Of a stretch of DNA of 21,683 bases, positions 3 to 18,037 are shown piece by piece. The DNA is from a virus. Position numbers and translations under genes: made by a program. The DNA lies in IMG/VR virus record IMGVR_UViG_3300042890_004289, positions 1 through 21,683 of that record. One strand, 5' to 3'. Under the pieces are notes generated by a model that had not been told where the DNA came from, searched no databases, and was given only the letters and a program-made list of their open reading frames with translations. The stretch's first letter is position 1. Every line of letters starts with the position of its first letter.

Positions 3-311
3 ACAGTGGGACTCAACACATTTCACGACAGTGAAAGGGCCAACAGTGACTATACTCTCAATCGTGTGATGATGGCAGTGGCCATGGCAGACGGTTCTGA
101 CAAACCAATCAAGATGGATTACAAGAGCTGGGCTGGCAAAGAAAAAACAGCACATCCTTATACTGAGGTAGAACAGAACATGCTCAAGCAGGCCTTCAAG
201 GCAGCTGGTGCTGACTGGACTGACACCAACAAAGGTGACCTCAATAGTGGCGAACATCCAGAGGTCAATGTTGCCAGTCCTGTGATAGGATTCCGAGGAT
301 ATCCCAGATGA
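3..311 (+). CDS. Small phage protein with C-terminal GFRGYPR tag, copy 1 (5' partial)
   Basis: The frame is open to the left edge. The first in-frame start-type codon is GTG at 6, so the true start probably lies upstream. I do not recognise the function. The visible part is about 100 residues, soluble, with no membrane segment. It ends in SPVIGFRGYPR, nearly the same end as the next protein (SPVRGFRGYPR). The two also share the order of other short motifs: a Y..xR..MA.A segment with a following D-G, an aromatic SW-type patch, a KAAG/KMAG helix and an E-P-E-V/M-VN segment before the tag. They are therefore diverged tandem paralogs. The stop overlaps the next start by ATGA, which implies translational coupling. 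Position beside fibre-like and terminase genes suggests a late, perhaps virion-associated role; this is inference. Confidence 0.75.
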   Translation, partial: TVGLNTFHDSERANSDYTLNRVMMAVAMADGSDKPIKMDYKSWAGKEKTAHPYTEVEQNMLKQAFKAAGADWTDTNKGDLNSGEHPEVNVASPVIGFRGYPR

Positions 312-691
312 GAGCACGAGAGTTTGTGACTGAAGAAAAAACCTTGCCGCCAGAGCAGGCAGATCCCATGAATCATGTGTTTGTGTTGCCCGGTGTGAAT
401 TCCAGCGACCCGTATCAAATATATAGATTTGGTGTGGCCATGGCTCGTGCCAGAAGCGATGCTGGCACAGATGGCATCACCAACAATTTACCTGCTTGGT
501 CCGCAGAGGCAGCGTTTGGAGAACATGCAGTTGTGGCCGGATTCAATGATTCCGTTGAGTCCGTAATTGATCAAGCGTTAAAAATGGCAGGACTGCCTGA
601 TAAAAAAGTGCAGGTGAGCACACCAGATAGCCTAGAGCCCGAGATGGTCAATCATCAAAGTCCTGTGCGTGGCTTCCGGGGCTATCCCAGG
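276..691 (+). repeat. Pair of direct repeats encoding SPVxGFRGYPR (276-308 and 659-691)
   Basis: The two 33-base copies each encode eleven residues at the ends of tandem genes. Ten of the eleven residues are identical, while most nucleotide differences fall at third codon positions (for example CGA/CGG, GGA/GGC, AGA/AGG). This suggests selection on the peptide rather than a recent DNA duplication. Confidence 0.7.
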
Positions 692-694
692 TAA
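308..694 (+). CDS. Small phage protein with MRAREF start and C-terminal GFRGYPR tag, copy 2
   Basis: A 128-residue protein of unknown function. It begins MRAREFVTEE, an amino-terminal signature I recall from many proteins of aquatic T4-like phages (recollection, not checked here). It ends SPVRGFRGYPR, matching the tag of the preceding gene. The middle part (VAMARARSDAG, ALKMAGLPDKK, EPEMVNHQ) lines up with the upstream paralog. The start ATG overlaps the upstream TGA, and a GAGGA sequence about 10 bases before it can serve as ribosome binding site. The stop codon TAA at 692 is also the first part of a TAAATA motif, a candidate late promoter for the next gene. No signal peptide or membrane segment is visible. 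Confidence 0.8.
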   Translation: MRAREFVTEEKTLPPEQADPMNHVFVLPGVNSSDPYQIYRFGVAMARARSDAGTDGITNNLPAWSAEAAFGEHAVVAGFNDSVESVIDQALKMAGLPDKKVQVSTPDSLEPEMVNHQSPVRGFRGYPR

Positions 695-1763: not shown

Positions 1764-1803
1764 TATAATCAATTGTGGTTAGATTCAAGATAACTACTTG
1801 ATC

Positions 1804-3378
1804 ATGTCAAAACCACTTGAGACCGTACTGGTCAAGTCTCCTCATCGAACACAAACATTCACAGATCAACAACTGGATGAGTTTTTGAAGTGTGCTGATC
1901 CTGTCACAGGACCGCACTACTTTATGGATAACTTTTTTCATATACAACATCCCACACAGGGCAAAATGTTGTATCATCCGTATTCGTATCAGGTCAAACT
2001 GATTGATACCTATCATACCAATCGCTACTCCATCTCCATGATGCCTCGACAAACAGGCAAATCAACCAGTGCAGCCGGCTACCTGTTGTGGTACAGCATG
2101 TTTGTGCCGGACTCCACTATCCTGGTAGCAGCACACAAATACACAGGTGCTCAGGAGATCATGCAACGCATACGCTTTGCTTATGAACTGTGTCCAGATC
2201 ATATCCGAGCCGGAGTCACAAGCTACAACAAAGGATCAATAGACTTTGAAAACGGTAGTCGTATTGTGAGTGCCACCACAACAGAAACAACCGGACGTGG
2301 TATGAGTATTACCTTGCTCTACGCCGATGAGTTTGCGTATGTGCGACCCACTATTGCCCGAGAGTTCTGGACTAGTATCTCACCTACCTTGGCCACTGGT
2401 GGTAAAGCAATCATCACCAGCACACCCAACTCAGATGAAGATCAATTTGCGTTCATCTGGAAAGGTGCCAACAAGACCGAAGATGAATATGGTAATCCCA
2501 CGCCCTTGGGCATAAACGGATTCAAGGCCTATCGCAGTTACTGGCAAGAACATCCTGATCGTGACGAGTCCTGGGGTGAAAACATGCGAGCACAATTAGG
2601 CGATGATCGATTCCGCCGTGAGATTGGCTGCGAATTTATTATCAATGACGAGACTCTGATTGCTCCTGCCAAACTGCTGGATCTTGACGGACTTGAACCC
2701 ATGTACAAAACTGGCCAAGTACGCTGGTATGAGCCCATACGCAAGGATCAAGTGTATGTTGTGGCCCTGGATCCTAGTCTAGGCACAGGCGGCGATCCTG
2801 CTGCTATTCAAATCTTTGAAGCTAACACCACACGACAAGTGGGCGAATGGCGACACAACCGAACTCCAATTCCTGAACAGATTCGCATCCTGGTAGATGT
2901 GATCAAACACATAAATGAAACGGTGGGCGATGAAAAAAGCATCTATTACTCAGTGGAAAACAATACTATTGGTGAAGCTGCATTGATTTCAATTGCAGAA
3001 TGGGGCGAAGAAAACATACCGGGCTACTTCCTGAGTGATGTATCGGGTCCTGCTGTGAACGGGCGTAGAACACGCAAGGGATTCAACACCACAAACAAGT
3101 CCAAACTGAGCGCCTGTGCCAAACTTAAAAATCTTGTGGAATCTGGCAGAATGAAAGTGAACAGCAAAAGTTTAATTTCAGAATTCAAAAACTTTGTGGC
3201 ACATGGCACAAGTTATGCCGCCAAGCCCGGCGAAACAGACGATTTGATCATGGCCACAATCCTGGCTGTGCGCATGCTCACAGTGTTGCAGAGCTTTTAT
3301 ACTGAACTGGACTCGCACATGCGAGATCACGGCGAAGAGATCATAGAGCCATTCCCGTTTATTTCTATGGTGCGTTGA
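1804..3378 (+). CDS. Terminase large subunit (T4 gp17-like packaging ATPase/nuclease)
   Basis: A 524-residue protein with the full terminase motif set. The Walker A is PRQTGKST at residues 81-88. The Walker B LLYADE ends at D175/E176. The coupling motif IITSTPN is at about 203-209. The C-terminal RNaseH-like nuclease has D323 in VVALDPSLG, E385 in YSVENN and D480 in ETDDLIMA. These correspond to T4 gp17 D401, E458 and D542. It cuts concatemeric phage DNA and pumps it into the prohead. It is shorter than T4 gp17 (610 residues), mostly through reduced termini. An upstream in-frame TTG at 1798 is possible, but ATG 1804 is preferred; neither has a clear Shine-Dalgarno. The small terminase subunit is not in the window. 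Confidence 0.95.
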   Translation: MSKPLETVLVKSPHRTQTFTDQQLDEFLKCADPVTGPHYFMDNFFHIQHPTQGKMLYHPYSYQVKLIDTYHTNRYSISMMPRQTGKSTSAAGYLLWYSMFVPDSTILVAAHKYTGAQEIMQRIRFAYELCPDHIRAGVTSYNKGSIDFENGSRIVSATTTETTGRGMSITLLYADEFAYVRPTIAREFWTSISPTLATGGKAIITSTPNSDEDQFAFIWKGANKTEDEYGNPTPLGINGFKAYRSYWQEHPDRDESWGENMRAQLGDDRFRREIGCEFIINDETLIAPAKLLDLDGLEPMYKTGQVRWYEPIRKDQVYVVALDPSLGTGGDPAAIQIFEANTTRQVGEWRHNRTPIPEQIRILVDVIKHINETVGDEKSIYYSVENNTIGEAALISIAEWGEENIPGYFLSDVSGPAVNGRRTRKGFNTTNKSKLSACAKLKNLVESGRMKVNSKSLISEFKNFVAHGTSYAAKPGETDDLIMATILAVRMLTVLQSFYTELDSHMRDHGEEIIEPFPFISMVR

Positions 3379-5390: not shown

Positions 5391-6374
5391 ATGGCATCAC
5401 TAGCAGAAATCCGCGCACGGCTACAGGCCGCAGACAGCAACAAAGGTGGGCAATCCACCGGAGGCGGCGACAAATCAATTTACCCACACTGGAACATGGA
5501 AGAAGGCAAAGAAGCTGTACTTCGTTTCCTGCCAGACGGTAACACAAAAAACACATTCTTTTGGGCAGAGCGAGCAATGATTCGACTGCCATTCAATGGC
5601 GTCAAAGGTGAGATGGATTCCAAACAAGTCATGGTGCAAGTGCCATGTGTTGAGATGTGGGGCGATGCTTGCCCAATCTTGGCAGAAGTACGCACATGGT
5701 TCAAGGACAAGAGTCTTGAAGACATGGGTCGCAAGTACTGGAAAAAGCGCAGTTACATTTTCCAGGGCTTTGTACGTGAGAATCCCATCGGCGACGACAA
5801 AACACCGGACAATCCTATTCGCAAGTTCATCATTGGACCTCAGTTGTTTACCTTGATCAAAGGTGCCTTGATGGATCCTGAGTTGGAAGAATTGCCAACT
5901 GACATGTTGCGTGGCTTGGATTTCCGCATTGCTAAGACAAGCAAAGGTGGATATGCAGACTACAACACATCAAAATGGGCTCGTAAAGAATCCGCCCTGA
6001 CTGAAGCTGAACAAGCTGCTGTGTCCACACATGGCCTGTATGATCTCAGCACATTCTTGCCCAAGAAGCCCGGAGCAGTTGAGCTCAAGGTAATCAAGGA
6101 AATGTTTGAAGCAAGTGTAGATGGACAGCCTTACGATACAGAGCGTTGGGGTCAATACTTCCGTCCTGCTGGTGTCAACGCACCTGCTGGTGGCGCAGCC
6201 TCTGAAGACGCTCCTGCTCCTGTGGCACGTTCAGCACCTGCACCTGTTGCAGACTTTGACGAAGATGTTGCCGCAGCAGAAAAATCTTTTGCTGTTGAGC
6301 CTGTTGCTGCCCCAAAACCAGCACAAAAAGCCGAAGACATCCTGGCCATGATTCGTTCACGTCAACAAAAGTAA
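5391..6374 (+). CDS. Single-stranded DNA binding protein, gp32-like
   Basis: A 327-residue protein resembling T4 gp32, which coats single-stranded DNA in replication, recombination and repair. Order: a basic amino terminus with LAEIRARLQ (the cooperative-binding LAST-type region); a core OB-fold region with KEAVLRFLPDG, YWKKRSYIFQGFV and NPIRKFIIGPQL; and an acidic Ala/Pro-rich tail with DFDEDVAAAEKSF, ending AEDILAMIRSRQQK. The tail would serve as the protein-interaction arm. The zinc-ribbon part has only two cysteines (C86 and C94, as CVEMWGDACP). The third Cys of T4 is replaced in CPIL and no nearby His is present, so zinc binding as in T4 is doubtful. AAAGG precedes the ATG. A hairpin terminator separates it from uvsX. 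Confidence 0.9.
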   Translation: MASLAEIRARLQAADSNKGGQSTGGGDKSIYPHWNMEEGKEAVLRFLPDGNTKNTFFWAERAMIRLPFNGVKGEMDSKQVMVQVPCVEMWGDACPILAEVRTWFKDKSLEDMGRKYWKKRSYIFQGFVRENPIGDDKTPDNPIRKFIIGPQLFTLIKGALMDPELEELPTDMLRGLDFRIAKTSKGGYADYNTSKWARKESALTEAEQAAVSTHGLYDLSTFLPKKPGAVELKVIKEMFEASVDGQPYDTERWGQYFRPAGVNAPAGGAASEDAPAPVARSAPAPVADFDEDVAAAEKSFAVEPVAAPKPAQKAEDILAMIRSRQQK

Positions 6375-9463: not shown

Positions 9464-11278
<1,815 letters not shown>

Positions 11279-11288
11279 GATATGATAT

Positions 11289-11294
11289 TAAATA
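11289..11294 (+). promoter_or_regulatory. Candidate late promoter in a 33-base divergent gap
   Basis: ATTAAATAG lies 17 bases before ATG 11312, in the only gap between the divergent genes. T4 late geometry gives a leader of about 12 bases with no Shine-Dalgarno. The opposite strand has only a weak A/T-rich match (TATTTAAT) for the minus-strand gene. Confidence 0.35.
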
Positions 11295-11311
11295 GTTATT
11301 GAACAAACACC

Positions 11312-11959
11312 ATGTATAAAATAAATTCTCTCTGGCACAGTCCCGAACCCCCTAATGGATTCTTTAGTGAACGCTTGTCTGAACATGTAGATATACACTA
11401 TCAACAACGGTATCGTTACTATATATTCCAAAATATTCCACGCAAACGCACCATGATTGACATTGGTGCCAACATTGGTATCTTTGCCAGACCCAGTGCC
11501 GAACAGTTTGAACGGGTAATATGCTTTGAACCAGTGCTCAAAAATTTTGAAGTGTTGCAAAAAAATCTAGAAAGTTATCTCAATGTTGAATTGCATAACC
11601 TAGGGCTTGGCGATAAAGATCAAACAGTCACATTTGAATTACAAACTCTTAAGTGCGGTCATACCAAACAAGTTGAAGAGTTTGTTGCTAACCCTGAGTT
11701 CGAAAAACACACCGGAGAACTAACCACTCTGGATCGATTCAATTTTGAATCAGTTGACTGGATCAAGATAGATGTTGAAGGCTTTGAAAATGCAGTGTTG
11801 GAAGGAAGTCGCGCCACTATACAACGCAATAGACCCTGGTTGCTGATAGAAGACAACGGACAACAAGAATATCACAAGCAATGGTTGAACGACTTGTGCG
11901 GCCCATACGAAGCAGCAGCAGTCAAAAGCAAGAGCAACACAATATGGATACCACTATGA
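11312..11959 (+). CDS. FkbM-family SAM-dependent methyltransferase
   Basis: A 215-residue protein. The SAM-binding loop is MIDIGANIG at residues 48-56. The acidic residue binding the SAM ribose is in ICFEP, about 25 residues later. VDWIKIDVEGFE and a following LEGS are the characteristic FkbM-family signature. Members methylate hydroxyls on sugars and polyketides. Within the island it probably methylates a sugar of the phage-directed glycan. The start has no Shine-Dalgarno. Its end overlaps the next gene by ATGA. Confidence 0.88.
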   Translation: MYKINSLWHSPEPPNGFFSERLSEHVDIHYQQRYRYYIFQNIPRKRTMIDIGANIGIFARPSAEQFERVICFEPVLKNFEVLQKNLESYLNVELHNLGLGDKDQTVTFELQTLKCGHTKQVEEFVANPEFEKHTGELTTLDRFNFESVDWIKIDVEGFENAVLEGSRATIQRNRPWLLIEDNGQQEYHKQWLNDLCGPYEAAAVKSKSNTIWIPL

Positions 11960-12672
11960 AGCATTTACCCTATGAACGACAAGGTTTTAGTCAGAATGAC
12001 GAGACTGGAATCATTGAGTACATGCTGGCAGGAATAGCTGATCCCAAACAAACTTTTGTGGAGATTGGATTTGGCGACGGAACACAAAATATGACTCTGG
12101 ACCTGCTGCATCAAGGATATTCGGGAGTTGGCATAGATGGGTGGAACTGGAATCCATCTGTGACTGAAAGATGGCCAGATCAGTTGATCAAAATACAGCA
12201 AATGATTTCCCCAGGTGATGTTGCACAATGCATACCCGAACAATATTGGCAACCAGACTTTTTTAGTCTAGACATTGACAGCTTTGATTATGAAGTGGCA
12301 TCAACTCTATTGCACTCAGGATTCAGCCCTGCCACAGTGTGTTGTGAAATCAACAAGCATTTTGGCAACGACTGGGCTAGTTTTCCTTATGTTGAAAACC
12401 CAGTAAAAAAAGTCACATACAATAGAAAATTTCATTATGGCTGTTCATTGTCAAAGTACAAAGACCTGTGGTCACAGTATGGCTATGAGTTTTTTACATT
12501 TGACACAAGAGCAGTGAATGCATTTTGGTTCCATCCAGACCGAGTCAGTATAGACCTAACTGTTCCCAGAAAGCAAACACTTGATGAGATAGATACTGCT
12601 ATCATCAAACAACAAATTGCCGATCATCAGTACTGGAACAACAAACAAAACGAAATTTATCAACCCACATGA
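11956..12672 (+). CDS. Putative SAM-dependent methyltransferase
   Basis: A 238-residue protein. FVEIGFGDGTQN at residues 34-45 is a glycine-rich SAM-binding loop, and GYSGVGIDGWNW after it supplies the ribose-binding Asp. FFSLDIDSFDYEVAST resembles the D-I-D-x-x-D-Y element seen in FkbM-related enzymes of polysaccharide clusters. ATG 11956 was chosen because it overlaps the FkbM stop by ATGA and the domain follows directly. In-frame ATG 11944 and the earlier GTG at 11881 would run far into the preceding gene. The substrate is unknown. It overlaps the next gene by ATGA. Confidence 0.78.
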   Translation: MKHLPYERQGFSQNDETGIIEYMLAGIADPKQTFVEIGFGDGTQNMTLDLLHQGYSGVGIDGWNWNPSVTERWPDQLIKIQQMISPGDVAQCIPEQYWQPDFFSLDIDSFDYEVASTLLHSGFSPATVCCEINKHFGNDWASFPYVENPVKKVTYNRKFHYGCSLSKYKDLWSQYGYEFFTFDTRAVNAFWFHPDRVSIDLTVPRKQTLDEIDTAIIKQQIADHQYWNNKQNEIYQPT

Positions 12673-13496
12673 AATACGCAGTACTAACAACATTCCATGC
12701 TGCTGGCTATGAAAAATATGCCAGCCGCATGATTGATACATTTTTACAAAATTGGCCTCAAGAAGTTGACCTATATGTTTACACAGAAGATTGTGCTATC
12801 ACACAATCAGCACCCAATCTACATGTGAGAGACCTACACGCAGCAAGTCCAGAAATTGTGGCATTCAAACAACGCTGGGGATCGGACCCTAGAGCACGTG
12901 GACAAGTTGCCACAGGGCCTGTGGATCGCAAAGGCAAAGCACCTGGTATTGGATTTCGCTGGGATGCCATACGATTCAGTCACAAAGCATATTCTGTTAG
13001 CCATTGTGCTGCTAACTGTGCAGCTGATGTGTTGTTCTGGATGGATGCTGACATGGTATGCCACACACCTATCACTACTGAATTTATCAATAGTCAAATG
13101 CCTGTAGATACTGGTCTGGCATTTTTGGGTAGAGAAAAGAAATTTACTGAATGCGGCTTGTATGGCATGAATCTTCGGGATCCTGTGACTCGGGCATGGC
13201 TGCAAGAGTTTCAGTTGGCCTATGATTCCGGGCGTCTTATGACCATGGCTGAATGGAATGATTGTTGGGTGTTTGATGAAACTCGTAAAGAAGTGCAGGC
13301 AGCCAACCCTCAATGGCGTCAACTCAACTGGAGTGCAGGATTGATCAAAGGCGAAGGGCATCCACTAATCAACACTGCTTGGGGTGCATACCTAGACCAT
13401 CTCAAAGGCAAACGCAAAGATACTGGGCGTAGCAATGACAAGGATCTTGTGAGACCCCGAACAGAAAGTTACTGGTCTTCGTCCACAGGCTCTTGA
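12669..13496 (+). CDS. GT-A type glycosyltransferase with DAD motif
   Basis: A 275-residue protein. FWMDADMV at residues 123-130 is a DxD metal/nucleotide-sugar motif (D126, D128), preceded by RWDAIRFSHKAYSV. The amino end MKYAVLTTFHAAGYEKYA and the DLYVYTED strand are typical of GT-A transferases. It is clearly related to the convergent gene at 13469-14203: both have a DxFLxxWP segment, a YVYTE/YVE strand, KAY..xH and W-x-DAD. It is third in an ATGA-coupled plus-strand operon with two methyltransferases. Its 3' end overlaps its convergent relative by 28 bases. Confidence 0.75.
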   Translation: MKYAVLTTFHAAGYEKYASRMIDTFLQNWPQEVDLYVYTEDCAITQSAPNLHVRDLHAASPEIVAFKQRWGSDPRARGQVATGPVDRKGKAPGIGFRWDAIRFSHKAYSVSHCAANCAADVLFWMDADMVCHTPITTEFINSQMPVDTGLAFLGREKKFTECGLYGMNLRDPVTRAWLQEFQLAYDSGRLMTMAEWNDCWVFDETRKEVQAANPQWRQLNWSAGLIKGEGHPLINTAWGAYLDHLKGKRKDTGRSNDKDLVRPRTESYWSSSTGS

Positions 13497-14203
13497 CCAT
13501 ATTCTGCTTTTGAGTGCTTGGCCTTGAAGTGTATTAGATACTTGCCCAGCACAGTATGCGGCAACGGAGTTTTGTAGGGCTTGAGAAAGCCTGCACAAAG
13601 GTCTCTGTGCGTTGCATTGGGCACCGCCCGAATAGCCACACCCAGCACATCGTTGTCATAGAATCTACGAAGACCACTGCGATCACGTTCACGATATCGA
13701 CGGCAATATTCATCTCGCAGCGTTGCAAAATCCGGATGGCGGGTATTCACTGCAAACACTCCGGTTTCGGGAACCAACCATGCTCCTTTTTTGCCGCTTT
13801 TGTCGCTGGTGTAATTTACGCCCATGTACAAACTCAGATGTTGTTGATCCAACAATGCTGTCCATAACTCGTCGGGCATGTCGGCAACTGATATCACATC
13901 AGCATCCAGCCACACAATCCAATCTGCCTTGCTGTGATGCATGGCATGCATGATGGTATAGGCTTTTTTGGCAAATTTCTTTTCACTTTGATTGCAGTCT
14001 GGATCTGCTTGAAACACAGTGTAGTCAGGTTCAAGATCATCAAAATCAATAATTTTGATTCGTTCATCAACAGGCAGTACCATGTGCTCCACATACACAG
14101 TAAGGCCGTGTGAGCTTGGCCAGTGTCTCAAAAAACTGTCTACACAATCTTTGCCAATCAGGTCATAGTAACGCTGATTCATGCTGGTAATAATTTCAAT
14201 CAT
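13469..14203 (-). CDS. GT-A type glycosyltransferase with DAD motif, paralog of the convergent gene
   Basis: A 244-residue protein. The DxD motif is VWLDADVI (D100, D102), with KKAYTIMHAM upstream and GVFAVNTRHPDF downstream, a typical acceptor-side segment. The final HFKAKHSK may supply the late metal-binding His. The start at 14203 is preferred over 14293 because it overlaps the upstream gene's stop by ATGA and begins the domain with MIEIITSMNQRYYDL. The longer version would read far into the upstream gene. It is last of a five-gene minus-strand operon and converges with its own relative. Confidence 0.75.
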   Translation of the reverse strand: MIEIITSMNQRYYDLIGKDCVDSFLRHWPSSHGLTVYVEHMVLPVDERIKIIDFDDLEPDYTVFQADPDCNQSEKKFAKKAYTIMHAMHHSKADWIVWLDADVISVADMPDELWTALLDQQHLSLYMGVNYTSDKSGKKGAWLVPETGVFAVNTRHPDFATLRDEYCRRYRERDRSGLRRFYDNDVLGVAIRAVPNATHRDLCAGFLKPYKTPLPHTVLGKYLIHFKAKHSKAEYGQEPVDEDQ

Positions 14204-15165
14204 TTGACCGCCCATTTTTTCATGTGTTCCCAGCATGTGCCGGATCTCAATTCTTCGTGATTCCAGTGAAATTGTGCAATTCTCTGTATCCATGCGTCAC
14301 GATCAGGAGTGTGTGGTTTTTCAATTCTGTGAAATCCTGCACCTGCTATGTCACGAGCCTGACTGCGATCTGGATCAGTAACAAATACAGGTATACCTTC
14401 AATGGCAGCAGCCACAGCAGGACTAGAGTTGTGGTTGATCACTGCCCAGCAATCAACAAAATCTTCAGTCAGTGTGCTACCGCCCTGGCTCAGTTGTATA
14501 TTTGTTAATCTGCGGCCAGTGCAAAGTTTTATCAGACGTTCGCAGTATTTCACAGCTCGTTTGTCTCCGGGGTGTGGACGAATTCTAATAGGACGATCTG
14601 AGTATTTTCTTATTTCTGTAATGGTCTTGATGGCCCAGTCTATCACATCCCATCCTGCCATGCTCCACCCACCGTCACGTTGCAAACACAATAAAACATG
14701 ATTGCCGTTGACTCTCCAGGGTCGCAATTGCACTCCTGTTTGTGCCTGTATTGATTGCCACCGAACAGGATCTGGAGTCTGATCGCAGTATTCGCCGGTG
14801 TTGGGGAACACACCATCATAGCTGTAGCGCAACCAATAGCCAGGGTTATTTGTATCCTTGTACAAAAACAAATTTGAATCAGCAATAACTGTGCGTCCAC
14901 CCGAGCTGCGTTGACCTTCCACAATCTCTTGACGCAGTTGCAGGTGCTGGGCTGTTTTTCCGTGTTCGTGTACCCAGCCCAGGATCACAGCCACATCACT
15001 GGGTTGATATACAGATTCGGTTTCAATTATACCTTCGTCGCCGTATTCGGTCACTCCTTGTGCAAAATATTTCAAGGTGTCCAGTTTGTCCGTGGCCTTT
15101 TTCAATGACTCAGGAGTGTATTGTTCTTTTCTAGGCAGCGTGGCCAAATAGCTTACAACTTTCAT
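14200..15165 (-). CDS. Capsule-type glycosyltransferase-like protein, paralog B
   Basis: A 321-residue protein with the same C-terminal architecture as the proteins at 10436-11278 and 15162-15974. IRIRPHPGDK is at residues 193-202, NHNSSPAVAAAIEGIPVFV at 244-262, then AGAGFHRIEKPHTPDRDAW and a helix ending in EELRSG. NHVLLCLQRDGGW matches HVLVAMQRDDSQQW of paralog A. The His-Pro motif and the NS loop suggest a KpsS/KpsC-like GT-B transferase domain, inferred from motif layout. It is longer at the amino end than paralogs A and C. It overlaps both operon neighbours by ATGA. Confidence 0.6.
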   Translation of the reverse strand: MKVVSYLATLPRKEQYTPESLKKATDKLDTLKYFAQGVTEYGDEGIIETESVYQPSDVAVILGWVHEHGKTAQHLQLRQEIVEGQRSSGGRTVIADSNLFLYKDTNNPGYWLRYSYDGVFPNTGEYCDQTPDPVRWQSIQAQTGVQLRPWRVNGNHVLLCLQRDGGWSMAGWDVIDWAIKTITEIRKYSDRPIRIRPHPGDKRAVKYCERLIKLCTGRRLTNIQLSQGGSTLTEDFVDCWAVINHNSSPAVAAAIEGIPVFVTDPDRSQARDIAGAGFHRIEKPHTPDRDAWIQRIAQFHWNHEELRSGTCWEHMKKWAVK

Positions 15166-15974
15166 GATTCTTGCATCATTCTAAATGCTGTGCCATTGGC
15201 CAGTTCCTTCACATGATATTGGCCATATGCCATACTGTGACACCAGGCGTCAAGTAGGTCTCGATCAGGATAAAATGGATTGTCAATCTTGGCCAAATCT
15301 GTGTTGCCCACCGGTGTGGCCACATGACTAGGTGCTAACACAAATGCTGGCACACCTGCCAGTATACTTTCTACAGCCGCTACGCTGTTGAAAGTGACCA
15401 GGGCATGCACATCTTTTATCAATAGCTGGCTGAGTGGTTGGTACTGAACTCTATCAATTCGTTTGGGCGCCCGTTCTCGTATCTCCACTGGAAGATTTGT
15501 GTATGTTTTTATTGTGGCCACAGTTTCTCTGATCCACTGCTGTTGGTCTATGCCATAATATCTACAGGGCTTTTCATCTGGAGCTGCCACAATAATTCGC
15601 TTGCCATACCGCCGAGGATGGGGTTTGATTCCCAGTTGATTCCAACGATCGTTGGGTCGCTCACGTATGGTGGCGTGTTGCAGATCATTCAGCACAATTC
15701 TGTGATACATCTTGATACCTTGTGAGTTTTTGTTACTGATATTGTTGCCCACATAACCCGAGTCCATGAAATAAAAATTATTGCCATCCTCTAGACATTG
15801 TTTCATTATTTTGTGTTTGAGAATGCCCCGCAACACCAACTGATTGTGATCTGTTGCTATGTCATACTGATAATCAAAATAGTCAGAGTTGGTAGGTTCT
15901 AGCTTGGCACTGCGAGCCAACATGTTGACATACTCATCCTCACCGTTTTTGCTGAGAAAAATCCAGTTGTTCAT
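15162..15974 (-). CDS. Capsule-type glycosyltransferase-like protein, paralog C (degenerate HP motif)
   Basis: A 270-residue protein aligned by eye with paralogs A and B: FNSVAAVESILAGVPAFV at residues 195-212, PVGNTDLAKIDNPFYPDRD after it, and CHSMAYGQYHVKELANG near the end. Where A and B have IRPHP, this protein has EIRERAPKR at about 164-172. The His-Pro is lost from the usual place, although a GIKPHPRRYGKR occurs earlier at 115-125. It may be an altered or inactive transferase. The start at 15974 overlaps the upstream stop by ATGA and was chosen over 15995. Confidence 0.58.
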   Translation of the reverse strand: MNNWIFLSKNGEDEYVNMLARSAKLEPTNSDYFDYQYDIATDHNQLVLRGILKHKIMKQCLEDGNNFYFMDSGYVGNNISNKNSQGIKMYHRIVLNDLQHATIRERPNDRWNQLGIKPHPRRYGKRIIVAAPDEKPCRYYGIDQQQWIRETVATIKTYTNLPVEIRERAPKRIDRVQYQPLSQLLIKDVHALVTFNSVAAVESILAGVPAFVLAPSHVATPVGNTDLAKIDNPFYPDRDLLDAWCHSMAYGQYHVKELANGTAFRMMQES

Positions 15975-16660
15975 TCTATATCTCGCTGCTGGCAATACTC
16001 AGTGAGTATGCGTTCTTGATGCCACTCACTGCCTTGTGGTGTTGTGGCAAACTCATGAAAGCACGGTGTGCCCAGAGTGTAGTGCAACAGTTTGGCATCA
16101 GTACTGGGACCATACTCATCAGGCAACCAATTCCATTCAGGAGGCAAGGCACCTATGCGTTCATCGTCTAGCCAGGAAAAACGATGCAGTTCAGCACCTG
16201 TGGATTTTTCAATAAACTCAGGAGTTAATTTTCTATTGGGGAAACTGTTGCAGTTCCAGAGCATGACACTGCTCCAATTTTTTCGAGGATAGTTTTCATT
16301 TTTTGATCCCAGATATTTTTCACTCATGCGTGTCTGGTAATCGTGTTTGACCACTTGCACATCTTGTGCGGTGTTGCGCAGATTCCATAACTCGGCAATG
16401 TCTCCACGCACAATCATGTCACCATCTATAAAGATAGCATGCCCACTGTAGTTCATCAAGTGCGGTACCAGAAATCGACTGTAGATAAACTGATTGCTGC
16501 CATCTGTGTGTGTTTCTGTGTAGTCTCGGAACAGATTCAAAGCCAATGGAATGATGCTGACTGGTTGACTGGCATGTCTAATAATTGAGTTGGCACACAC
16601 ATGATACGCTATGGCTTCTCTAGGGTCGTAGCCCACAAAAACTGGTATGATGTTTTTCAT
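15971..16660 (-). CDS. GT8-like glycosyltransferase
   Basis: A 229-residue protein. It starts IIPVFVGYDPREAIAYHVC, the GT-A amino strand and nucleotide-binding region seen in GT8-like enzymes. AIFIDGDMIV contains the DxD motif (D79, D81), and NQFIYSRFLVPHLM precedes it as in that family. LLHYTLGTPCFHEF supplies the conserved late His that completes the metal site. It transfers a sugar from a nucleotide donor; donor and acceptor cannot be read. It is second in the minus-strand operon, with ATGA overlaps on both sides. No membrane segment is visible, so it should be cytoplasmic. Confidence 0.82.
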   Translation of the reverse strand: MKNIIPVFVGYDPREAIAYHVCANSIIRHASQPVSIIPLALNLFRDYTETHTDGSNQFIYSRFLVPHLMNYSGHAIFIDGDMIVRGDIAELWNLRNTAQDVQVVKHDYQTRMSEKYLGSKNENYPRKNWSSVMLWNCNSFPNRKLTPEFIEKSTGAELHRFSWLDDERIGALPPEWNWLPDEYGPSTDAKLLHYTLGTPCFHEFATTPQGSEWHQERILTEYCQQRDIE

Positions 16661-17415
16661 TTTCGTTCAATATCTTCTTCAACACAGTTTTCACCGTATT
16701 GGATTTCGATCAGTTTCAAGGGTTGATCAGTCTCATTGCACAGCTGGTGCCACTCATTTAATTTTATCCACGTGGATTGGTGCCGTGCAGGACTTGCCAT
16801 TAACTCGTATTCGGTGCTGTGAGGATTCACAGTGTAAACGGTGGCTTCACCTTCGGCCACAAACCAAAACTCTGCACGAGTTGAGTGCCGTTGCATGCTG
16901 AGTCTTTGCCCCGGCATCACTGTGAGTTCTTTGAGTTTGACATGACTGCCAACTTCGTGAAGAATACGATAGTAGCCCCAGGTTCGATCAGTTTTGGGCT
17001 TTTTCCATTCTTCCAGTATCCAGCTGCTGGAATTCTTTTTGTCGTCGCCGCCAACTCCAAATTTGAAGATCACATCTTGCACCACCATTTCGGGAATGTT
17101 GACTGCTGTACGATCACCACCGTTGGCAAAGATGATTTCATCTTCGGGATACATGGTCTGTACTGCACGAATGGCTTCAATACCTGAACCATCATCGTCA
17201 TTGAACAGGATGCAGCGATCTACCATGCGTAAATTTTCTATCACTGCCACACGCTCAACTGCAGGCATAAACGGTCGCCCTTTTTTACGGCACAACCATG
17301 CGTCAGAATTTACTCCCACTACCAGTCGATCACCCAGTTGCCGGGCTGCTGCTAGATAGGAAATGTGTCCAGAGTGTAAGGGATCAAATCCCCCAGTTAC
17401 AAGTACAATTTTCAT
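16657..17415 (-). CDS. Nucleotidyltransferase-cupin fusion protein
   Basis: A 252-residue two-domain protein. Residues 1-135 are a cytidylyltransferase/RfaE-type nucleotidyltransferase. GGFDPLHSGH (8-17) is the HxGH nucleotide site, VVGVNSDAWL follows, and NSSSWILEEW takes the place of the usual ISSST-type signature. Residues 145-245 are a cupin like the C-terminal domain of ManC/type II phosphomannose isomerase: GYYRILHEVG, MPGQRLSMQRHS, RAEFWFVAEGEATV, ELIEIQYG-like end. Cupin ligands H177, E182 and H223 are kept, but one His of the HxH is Thr179. The start at 17415 is preferred because the domain begins there. It heads the five-gene minus-strand operon. Likely reaction: activating a sugar-phosphate with a nucleotide; the cupin's role is unknown. 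Confidence 0.85.
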   Translation of the reverse strand: MKIVLVTGGFDPLHSGHISYLAAARQLGDRLVVGVNSDAWLCRKKGRPFMPAVERVAVIENLRMVDRCILFNDDDGSGIEAIRAVQTMYPEDEIIFANGGDRTAVNIPEMVVQDVIFKFGVGGDDKKNSSSWILEEWKKPKTDRTWGYYRILHEVGSHVKLKELTVMPGQRLSMQRHSTRAEFWFVAEGEATVYTVNPHSTEYELMASPARHQSTWIKLNEWHQLCNETDQPLKLIEIQYGENCVEEDIERK

Positions 17416-17420
17416 GTAAA

Positions 17421-17426
17421 TATTTA
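17421..17426 (-). promoter_or_regulatory. Candidate late promoter for the minus-strand glycan operon
   Basis: Read on the minus strand the sequence is CACATAAATATTTACATG, with ATG at 17415. Five bases separate the TAAATA motif from the start codon and no Shine-Dalgarno is present. T4 late geometry predicts transcription starting at the ATG itself. It lies in a 40-base gap shared with the divergent plus-strand unit. Confidence 0.45.
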
Positions 17427-17442
17427 TGTGCATACATAATGG

Positions 17443-17448
17443 TAAATA
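17443..17448 (+). promoter_or_regulatory. Candidate late promoter for the plus-strand methyltransferase unit
   Basis: GGTAAATAAAATATC precedes ATG 17456 with seven bases between motif and start. No Shine-Dalgarno is present. It is divergent from the motif at 17421-17426, so one short A/T-rich gap appears to start two late units back to back. Confidence 0.45.
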
Positions 17449-17455
17449 AAATATC

Positions 17456-18037
17456 ATGGAGCATTTTTACCAAAGCGTTGACGGATTTATGAGTCACAAG
17501 AATACTATCATGCTTGATATTGTTCTAGAGCAATTTCCTGCAGGTGGTACCTGGGTAGAATTGGGATCCTGGACTGGCCGTAGTGCTGCATACTGTGTGG
17601 TAGAATTGATCAATCGTGACAAGCTGGGCCCATTTTACTGTGTGGACAGCTGGAAAGGCGAAGAAGCCATTGCCTATGATACTGACACTGTTCAGGACCT
17701 TGAAAACATATTCCGACAAAATGTAAAACCAGTGCTGGAGCACATAACAATGCTGACCATGATGAGTTGGCATGCAGCCGCTGATTTTGAGGATGATTCT
17801 GTGGACTTTTGTTATGTAGATGCAGGCCACAGCTACGAATCAGTGACCAATGATCTTGAAGCCTGGTGGCCAAAAATACGCCCGGGATCTCAGTTTGGCG
17901 GCGATGATTATACCAAAGGCTATCCTGGTGTGCAACAAGCGGTGTGGGATTTCTTTGGACCATTAAACATAAAGGTTCGACGATCTGGTCGTTGCTGGTT
18001 GGTTACAAAACCTTTTGATAACAACAGTTCGATTTAA
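17456..18037 (+). CDS. Class I SAM-dependent methyltransferase (Methyltransf_24-like)
   Basis: A 193-residue protein. WVELGSWTGRSA at residues 33-44 is the SAM-binding loop. FYCVDSWKG gives the acidic ribose-binding region. DFCYVDAGHSYESVTNDLEA and GSQFGGDDYTKGYPGV match the metal-assisted small methyltransferases found in sugar and rhamnosyl O-methylation clusters. It probably methylates a sugar hydroxyl. There is no Shine-Dalgarno. The stop codon TAA is part of the TAAATA motif before the next gene. Confidence 0.8.
   Translation: MEHFYQSVDGFMSHKNTIMLDIVLEQFPAGGTWVELGSWTGRSAAYCVVELINRDKLGPFYCVDSWKGEEAIAYDTDTVQDLENIFRQNVKPVLEHITMLTMMSWHAAADFEDDSVDFCYVDAGHSYESVTNDLEAWWPKIRPGSQFGGDDYTKGYPGVQQAVWDFFGPLNIKVRRSGRCWLVTKPFDNNSSI

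Follow-up and report, generated by a model that had tools for sequence, protein, structure and literature searches.

A conserved N-terminal leader on tandem genes and unrelated proteins of large uncultivated T4-type phages: a candidate head-loading signal

The first two genes of a 21,683-base virus record (the window, i.e., the whole stretch of DNA analyzed) encode small proteins that differ through most of their length but end almost identically. The initial annotation had proposed that this end could be a docking, packaging, or processing tag present on several late proteins. The question is whether the locus does encode such a tag and, if so, at which end of the proteins it lies. The features concerned are as follows.

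3 to 311, + strand: upstream paralog, an ORF of 102 amino acids (aa) open at the 5' edge of the contig, with its N-terminal leader outside the window
276 to 308, + strand: C-terminal tail of the upstream paralog, SPVIGFRGYPR (translation)
308 to 311, + strand: 4-bp ATGA overlap of the first gene's stop and the second gene's start
308 to 694, + strand: downstream paralog, complete, 128 aa, ATG start
308 to 334, + strand: leader MRAREFVTE (pattern MRAxEF[ILV]xE), which resembles a capsid targeting sequence and may be cut by the prohead protease after E9
629 to 637, + strand: S108-x-E110, near-invariant in the family alignment (S, 97%; E, 100%; n = 117)
659 to 691, + strand: C-terminal tail of the downstream paralog, SPVRGFRGYPR
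1798 to 3378, + strand: large terminase subunit, a short distance downstream of the tandem genes, with the same order in contigs G001, G002, G003, and G005

The tandem pair, its neighborhood, and its family

The two tails are identical at 10 of 11 residues, as the initial annotation had stated. Its description of the DNA was also accurate: the 10 shared codons comprise four synonymous differences and six identical codons, and the 11th codon differs at all three bases. The bodies of the pair have indeed diverged (32% identity over residues 38 to 128 of the second protein). The likeness of the tails is far beyond chance, since the tail recurs in tandem copies on dozens of related contigs and a family tree places the bodies on two branches that lie far apart and have good support. 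An N terminus shared by the pair is not visible in the window because the first ORF is truncated at its 5' end; however, a full-length relative of the upstream paralog (L002, positions 5907 to 6281) begins with MRAREFVTET.

In the window and in G001, G002, G003, and G005, a distance of ~1 to 3.5 kb separates the tandem genes from the terminase gene downstream. The terminase is best matched (54.7% identity) by those of PA5oct and further Pseudomonas phages of ~286 kb. Downstream of it are an ORF of 605 aa that weakly matches a virion-protein family and genes for a single-stranded DNA-binding protein and a UvsX-like recombinase. The string LRGYPL in the 605-aa protein, previously put forward as a related tag, did not hold up as such. 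It is internal (RGY at residue 558), and RGYP occurs in 1 of 44 distinct related proteins, so that RGYPL could be ruled out as a third tag for want of conservation among relatives; judged by these sequence comparisons, the string is most likely a coincidence.

Two other gene groups of the window deserve mention. Directly after the tandem genes' neighbor, positions 1326 to 1763 encode a staphylococcal-nuclease-like protein (SNase; E value, 1.1e-10) with a signal-peptide-like start, and an SNase-like gene is also found beside the tandem pair in L001, L002, L005, L006, L007, and L011. Genes for sugar and methyl transfer, located on both strands, are grouped at positions 9467 to 17457; they include those for a GDP-mannose 4,6-dehydratase, an FkbM methyltransferase, a glycosyltransferase of family 8, and a fusion protein of a cytidylyltransferase with a mannose-6-phosphate-isomerase-type cupin.

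Searching IMG/VR with the second protein yielded 42 loci, some contigs having three or four tandem copies. Full-length relatives of both window genes start with MRAxEF[ILV]xE and end with SPVxxFxGYxR. In 43 records, both end patterns were found in 91 ORFs, only the N-terminal one in six, and only the C-terminal one in three. The six N-only ORFs are (i) two that run off the contig end (L030 and L040), (ii) two short antisense ORFs (L033 and L034), (iii) a copy in L021 that stops early, and (iv) a genuine member with a different tail (L042). The C-only ORFs are the truncated gene of the window, a truncated copy in L029, and an ORF in L009 whose leader lies beyond the 60 residues searched. The early stop in L021 (9636 to 9950), which leaves the leader and removes the tail, is either a real loss or a sequence error.

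Over all loci there were 162 distinct full-length members, a set that was partly fetched by the leader pattern and so favors the leader. FxG[YFL] is present near the end in 142 of them; the other 20 keep the leader and have different endings, mostly SPV followed by basic residues. Five further matches had no standard leader: three are cut at the 5' end (one window gene accounts for two of these), and the remaining two have VKIRDLLIE or MRINELLTE in its place. In an alignment of 117 members, M1, R2, A3, E5, F6, E9, E110, and S118 are invariant; within the leader, positions 4 and 8 are unconstrained, and position 7 holds I, V, L, or M.

When a tree was built from the bodies without their ends, the paralogs fell on separate branches with support of 99/99 (44 rows) and 100/99 (49 rows), so that the duplication is an old one; 109 columns were kept, and the fine branching is unsure. 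A recent duplication or gene conversion is unlikely given these branches. The family matches none known in Pfam or PHROGs (no PHROG match for any of the 117 members), the PDB sequence search gave one weak match (E value, 0.013), and Foldseek gave no match at an E value of 0.001 or better.

The leader on other proteins

The proposal of a peptide tag common to several proteins survives in altered form: such a peptide, probably serving packaging and processing, exists at the N terminus (MRAxEF[ILV]xE) and not at the C terminus, and this leader is the stronger signal of the two ends. A DNA scan for MRAxEFIxE gave at least 146 matches in at least 120 loci, versus 10 in all for a scrambled control of the same make-up. 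Among the matches listed with a stop in view, an upstream in-frame stop lies within 30 codons in 128 of 145 cases and within 10 codons in 89. The 140 bodies of at least 50 aa among the matches listed formed 31 clusters, showing that the leader is common to otherwise unrelated proteins; 77 bodies belong to the tandem family, and one cluster of 23 owes its grouping partly to low-complexity sequence. The single matches in L092, L108, and L207 resemble chance. With a relaxed leader pattern, all 20 tag-bearing contigs matched, at 57 places, and the reversed pattern matched at none.

At least 217 distinct N-tagged ORFs were found over the loci, 154 in the family and 63 outside it. The 347-kb contig G001 has further ORFs with the leader and without the tail, and in an unsupervised search of this contig for enriched N-terminal triplets, MR..EF ranked first. 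In several contigs, no genes other than the tandem pair have the leader. Two regions resemble cargo islands, with six leader-bearing starts in ~8 kb (G033, 14030 to 21726) and seven in ~10 kb (G031, 58597 to 68544).

A Pfam scan of 40 tagged non-family proteins gave seven matches above the curated cutoff, namely, GH19 (L147, L152, L100, and L197), GNAT (L190 and L183), and ADPrib_exo_Tox (L176). ParB_N and DUF6886 (L106) fell just short of the cutoff and Kinase-PolyVal well short, and most tagged bodies have no recognized domain. Cultured relatives of the four tagged GH19 enzymes are annotated as endolysins or lysozymes. No such leader was seen in the cultured relatives of two tagged proteins (S-SRM01, S-B68, and ChuuTotoro).

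Could the conservation instead lie in the nucleotides, as a translation-start element copied between genes with no role at the protein level? The use of AGA at codon 2 in 197 of 254 cases, versus 17% of Arg codons in G001 to G003, speaks for such an element. However, in many copies an ATGA overlap with the neighboring gene dictates the A that follows ATG, and wobble usage elsewhere in the leader is roughly that of the genomes (GCA/GCC/GCT/GCG, 117/75/51/11; TTT/TTC, 178/76; ATT/ATA/ATC, 77/60/60). Codons 4 and 8 vary freely, in contrast to the fixed E5, F6, and E9. We regard a purely nucleotide-level role as highly improbable.

The C-terminal tail

The search for the terminal peptide confirmed that the tail is clearly conserved inside the family, but unrelated ORFs lack it. 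Of the 63 N-tagged ORFs outside the family, none ends with FxGYPR, and the two that do among 2,808 untagged background ORFs are both 5'-truncated family members. In four large contigs, the peptide is carried by the tandem genes only. The idea of a general C-terminal docking tag therefore had to be given up, FxGYPR being confined to the duplicated family.

Other accounts of the tail were weighed against its being an element of the family's own. That the C-terminal peptide is itself the packaging or docking tag of several late proteins is highly improbable and, as a general tag, largely refuted. It is true that the tail is kept across old paralogs and that [KR]GY endings are in weak excess among the other tagged ORFs (3 of 63 versus 8 of 2,808 in the background; post hoc p = 0.0015), but FxGYPR is missing from unrelated ORFs, the 20 members lacking FxG[YFL] still have the leader, and the match in the 605-aa protein is not conserved. 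Nor is the tail likely to be a propeptide released as the last 18 residues by a protease cutting after S108-x-E110, a reading that we consider quite improbable. The 97% and 100% conservation of S108 and E110 around a free residue does speak for it, as do the cuts at LTE-619 in T4 Alt, by which Alt is shortened at its C terminus, and SLE-13 in phiKZ gp93 given in the available text of PMC5694885. Nevertheless, S at P3 is unlike the [ILV]xE of the leader, and a discarded piece would have no need to keep FxGYPR. The AlphaFold model (mean pLDDT, 83.8; pTM, 0.57) has its lowest stated confidence in the first block (63, low) and fair confidence at the C-terminal end (84 and 75), so the tail may belong to the fold and may pack on the body. 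A Shine-Dalgarno sequence or the gene overlap as the sole cause of tail conservation was rejected: the last genes of arrays keep the tail (308 to 694 in the window, followed by a 21-base gap, and the third copy in L033), and the DNA changes are synonymous.

In our main reading, the tail SPVxxFxGYxR would be a second element, particular to the family and kept on the mature protein, that most likely packs on the small domain or docks a shared partner.

Destination of the leader and comparison with known systems

The capsid targeting sequence of T4 is the classic case of a phage loading and injecting unrelated antidefense and takeover proteins. T4 IpII and IpIII (AF158101) begin with MKTYQEFIAEA, and our leader has in common with MKTYQEFIAE the residues M-[KR]...EFI-x-E, being one residue shorter; this likeness was recognized post hoc. 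According to the available text of PMC3012670 and PMC12373910, the T4 internal proteins are diverse and have in common only the leader directing packaging. T4 Alt is cut at ITE-6 as well as at the site mentioned above (PMC5694885, same text). The [I/L/V]xE end of our leader is likewise a plausible prohead protease site.

A T4-type head module accompanies the leader. G001, G002, and G003 each have one homolog of each of the PA5oct head genes for the portal, a 73-aa protein, the protease, a scaffold-like protein, and the major capsid protein; the names protease and scaffold rest on the PA5oct annotation, the T4 gene order, and general background on these families. A T4-type prohead protease was found in 11 of the 20 tag-bearing contigs, which are all 11 of those of at least 151 kb, and 10 of these 11 also contain the tandem family. 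It was not found in the other nine, all of at most 129 kb, which may be fragments. In G001, a 66-aa tagged protein (62030) continues with EFIKENASVGATSSGSVAT, close to YLKENASAGSTAAGNIAT of the major capsid protein of the same contig, and this likeness may mark a shared processing site. Tagged proteins of 65 to 66 aa with a NASxGATxxGxxA-like stretch after the leader were seen at G001 62030 to 62230 and in L154 and L164; a similar stretch follows the likely cleavage site in major capsid proteins.

On the sequence evidence as a whole, the tandem family probably consists of internal head proteins loaded by a capsid-targeting-like leader that also loads other cargo. The window would then carry the tandem core genes, for internal head proteins of ~125 aa, of a lineage of large uncultivated T4-type phages. 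The nine-residue leader MRA-x-E-F-[I/V/L]-x-E would dock the protein on the scaffold core as the prohead assembles, the T4-type prohead protease would cut after E9 at [I/L/V]-x-E, and the mature protein would remain in the head with the DNA and be ejected at infection. The same leader would load a varying set of others, including an ADP-ribosyltransferase, acetyltransferases, GH19 lysozymes, and proteins of other kinds. We infer the docking and the cut, the packaging and the ejection, as well as whatever part the tail plays.

Head loading gains from the tagged ADPrib_exo_Tox and GNAT domains, which are among the kinds predicted to be injected in the available text of PMC5512222. Several points count against it: the GH19 enzymes are not an obvious head cargo, the protease was not found in the nine contigs noted above, the leader shares only M-[KR]-EFI-E with T4, some contigs have no tagged gene besides the tandem pair, and PA5oct, Phosso, Atu_ph07, Vibrio phage 2.275.O, and T4 have neither the strict leader nor the family. 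Although the same sequence facts would suit a sorting or docking signal for another place, such as the tail tube, baseplate, membrane, or replication compartment, and the GH19 lysozymes would fit tail-associated or lysis roles, we find a destination other than the prohead core rather unlikely, given the resemblance to the T4 capsid targeting sequence, the fit of the [ILV]xE end to prohead proteases, and the presence of the protease in all large tag-bearing contigs.

Whether MRAxEF[ILV]xE is a universal, lineage-wide loading signal for virion cargo, consisting of a core set beside the terminase plus changing enzymes, with the tail as a second, independent signal of the core set, is in our estimate evenly balanced. 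If it is, the changing arsenal would comprise ADP-ribosyltransferases, acetyltransferases, lysozymes, and many unknowns, often in clustered genes, and the injected proteome could be read directly from metagenomes, giving leads to new antidefense and host-modifying enzymes. The leader would also provide a second packaging tag for putting foreign proteins into phage heads and would be a different leader with the same logic as T4 capsid targeting in a large uncultivated lineage. Outside preprints and the bulk of subscription journals, the literature searched gave no account of either the family or the leader, and a search for the printed leader (MRAREF, MRAKEF, MRANEF, MRASEF, MRATEF, and MRAHEF) returned no phage paper among those listed.

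Among cultured phages, PA5oct (Wroclawvirus) has homologous portal, core protein, protease, scaffold, and capsid genes. It lacks both the MRAxEF leader and the tandem family, but a few of its proteins start with MKIxDIxxE or MKIxEIxxE, and the VKIRDLLIE and MRINELLTE of two members of the window's family are of a similar dialect (M[KR]IxxLLxE). In its record, 93 of 445 coding sequences (counted from the listed features) are marked as detected by mass spectrometry (MS). A loose leader pattern matched six annotated starts, four of them in MS-detected proteins (p = 0.019; two matches not using the annotated start are excluded), a looser one adds two undetected genes, and the narrow pattern M[KR][IL]x[DE][IL][ILV]xE gives two MS-detected proteins of three, the third matching by a nonannotated start. 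The MS association is weak, since it depends on the pattern used, and lends weak support to head loading. In the cultured relative Phosso, an unsupervised N-terminal search made no general leader evident.

The polyvalent and other injected phage proteins of PMC5512222, with Alt-type ADP-ribosyltransferases and GNATs among the kinds compared, resemble, as far as its available text describes them, the tagged proteins in the ADPrib_exo_Tox and GNAT domains and, weakly, in ParB_N and Kinase-PolyVal. In that text, the packaging of polyvalent or injected proteins is deduced from domains and gene context, whereas the proteins found here are marked by a short leader.

Compared with IpI, IpII, and IpIII of T4, the window's family has its own leader (MRAxEF[ILV]xE, one residue shorter), occupies a syntenic place next to the terminase, and ends in a conserved C-terminal tail, which the T4 proteins do not have. 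No similarity of the bodies was found (no PHROG or Pfam match, and no T4 match to the family profile). What the two systems have in common is a short N-terminal leader on otherwise unrelated small proteins, with an EFIxE core and an [I/L]xE end, and a T4-type prohead protease in the same genomes.
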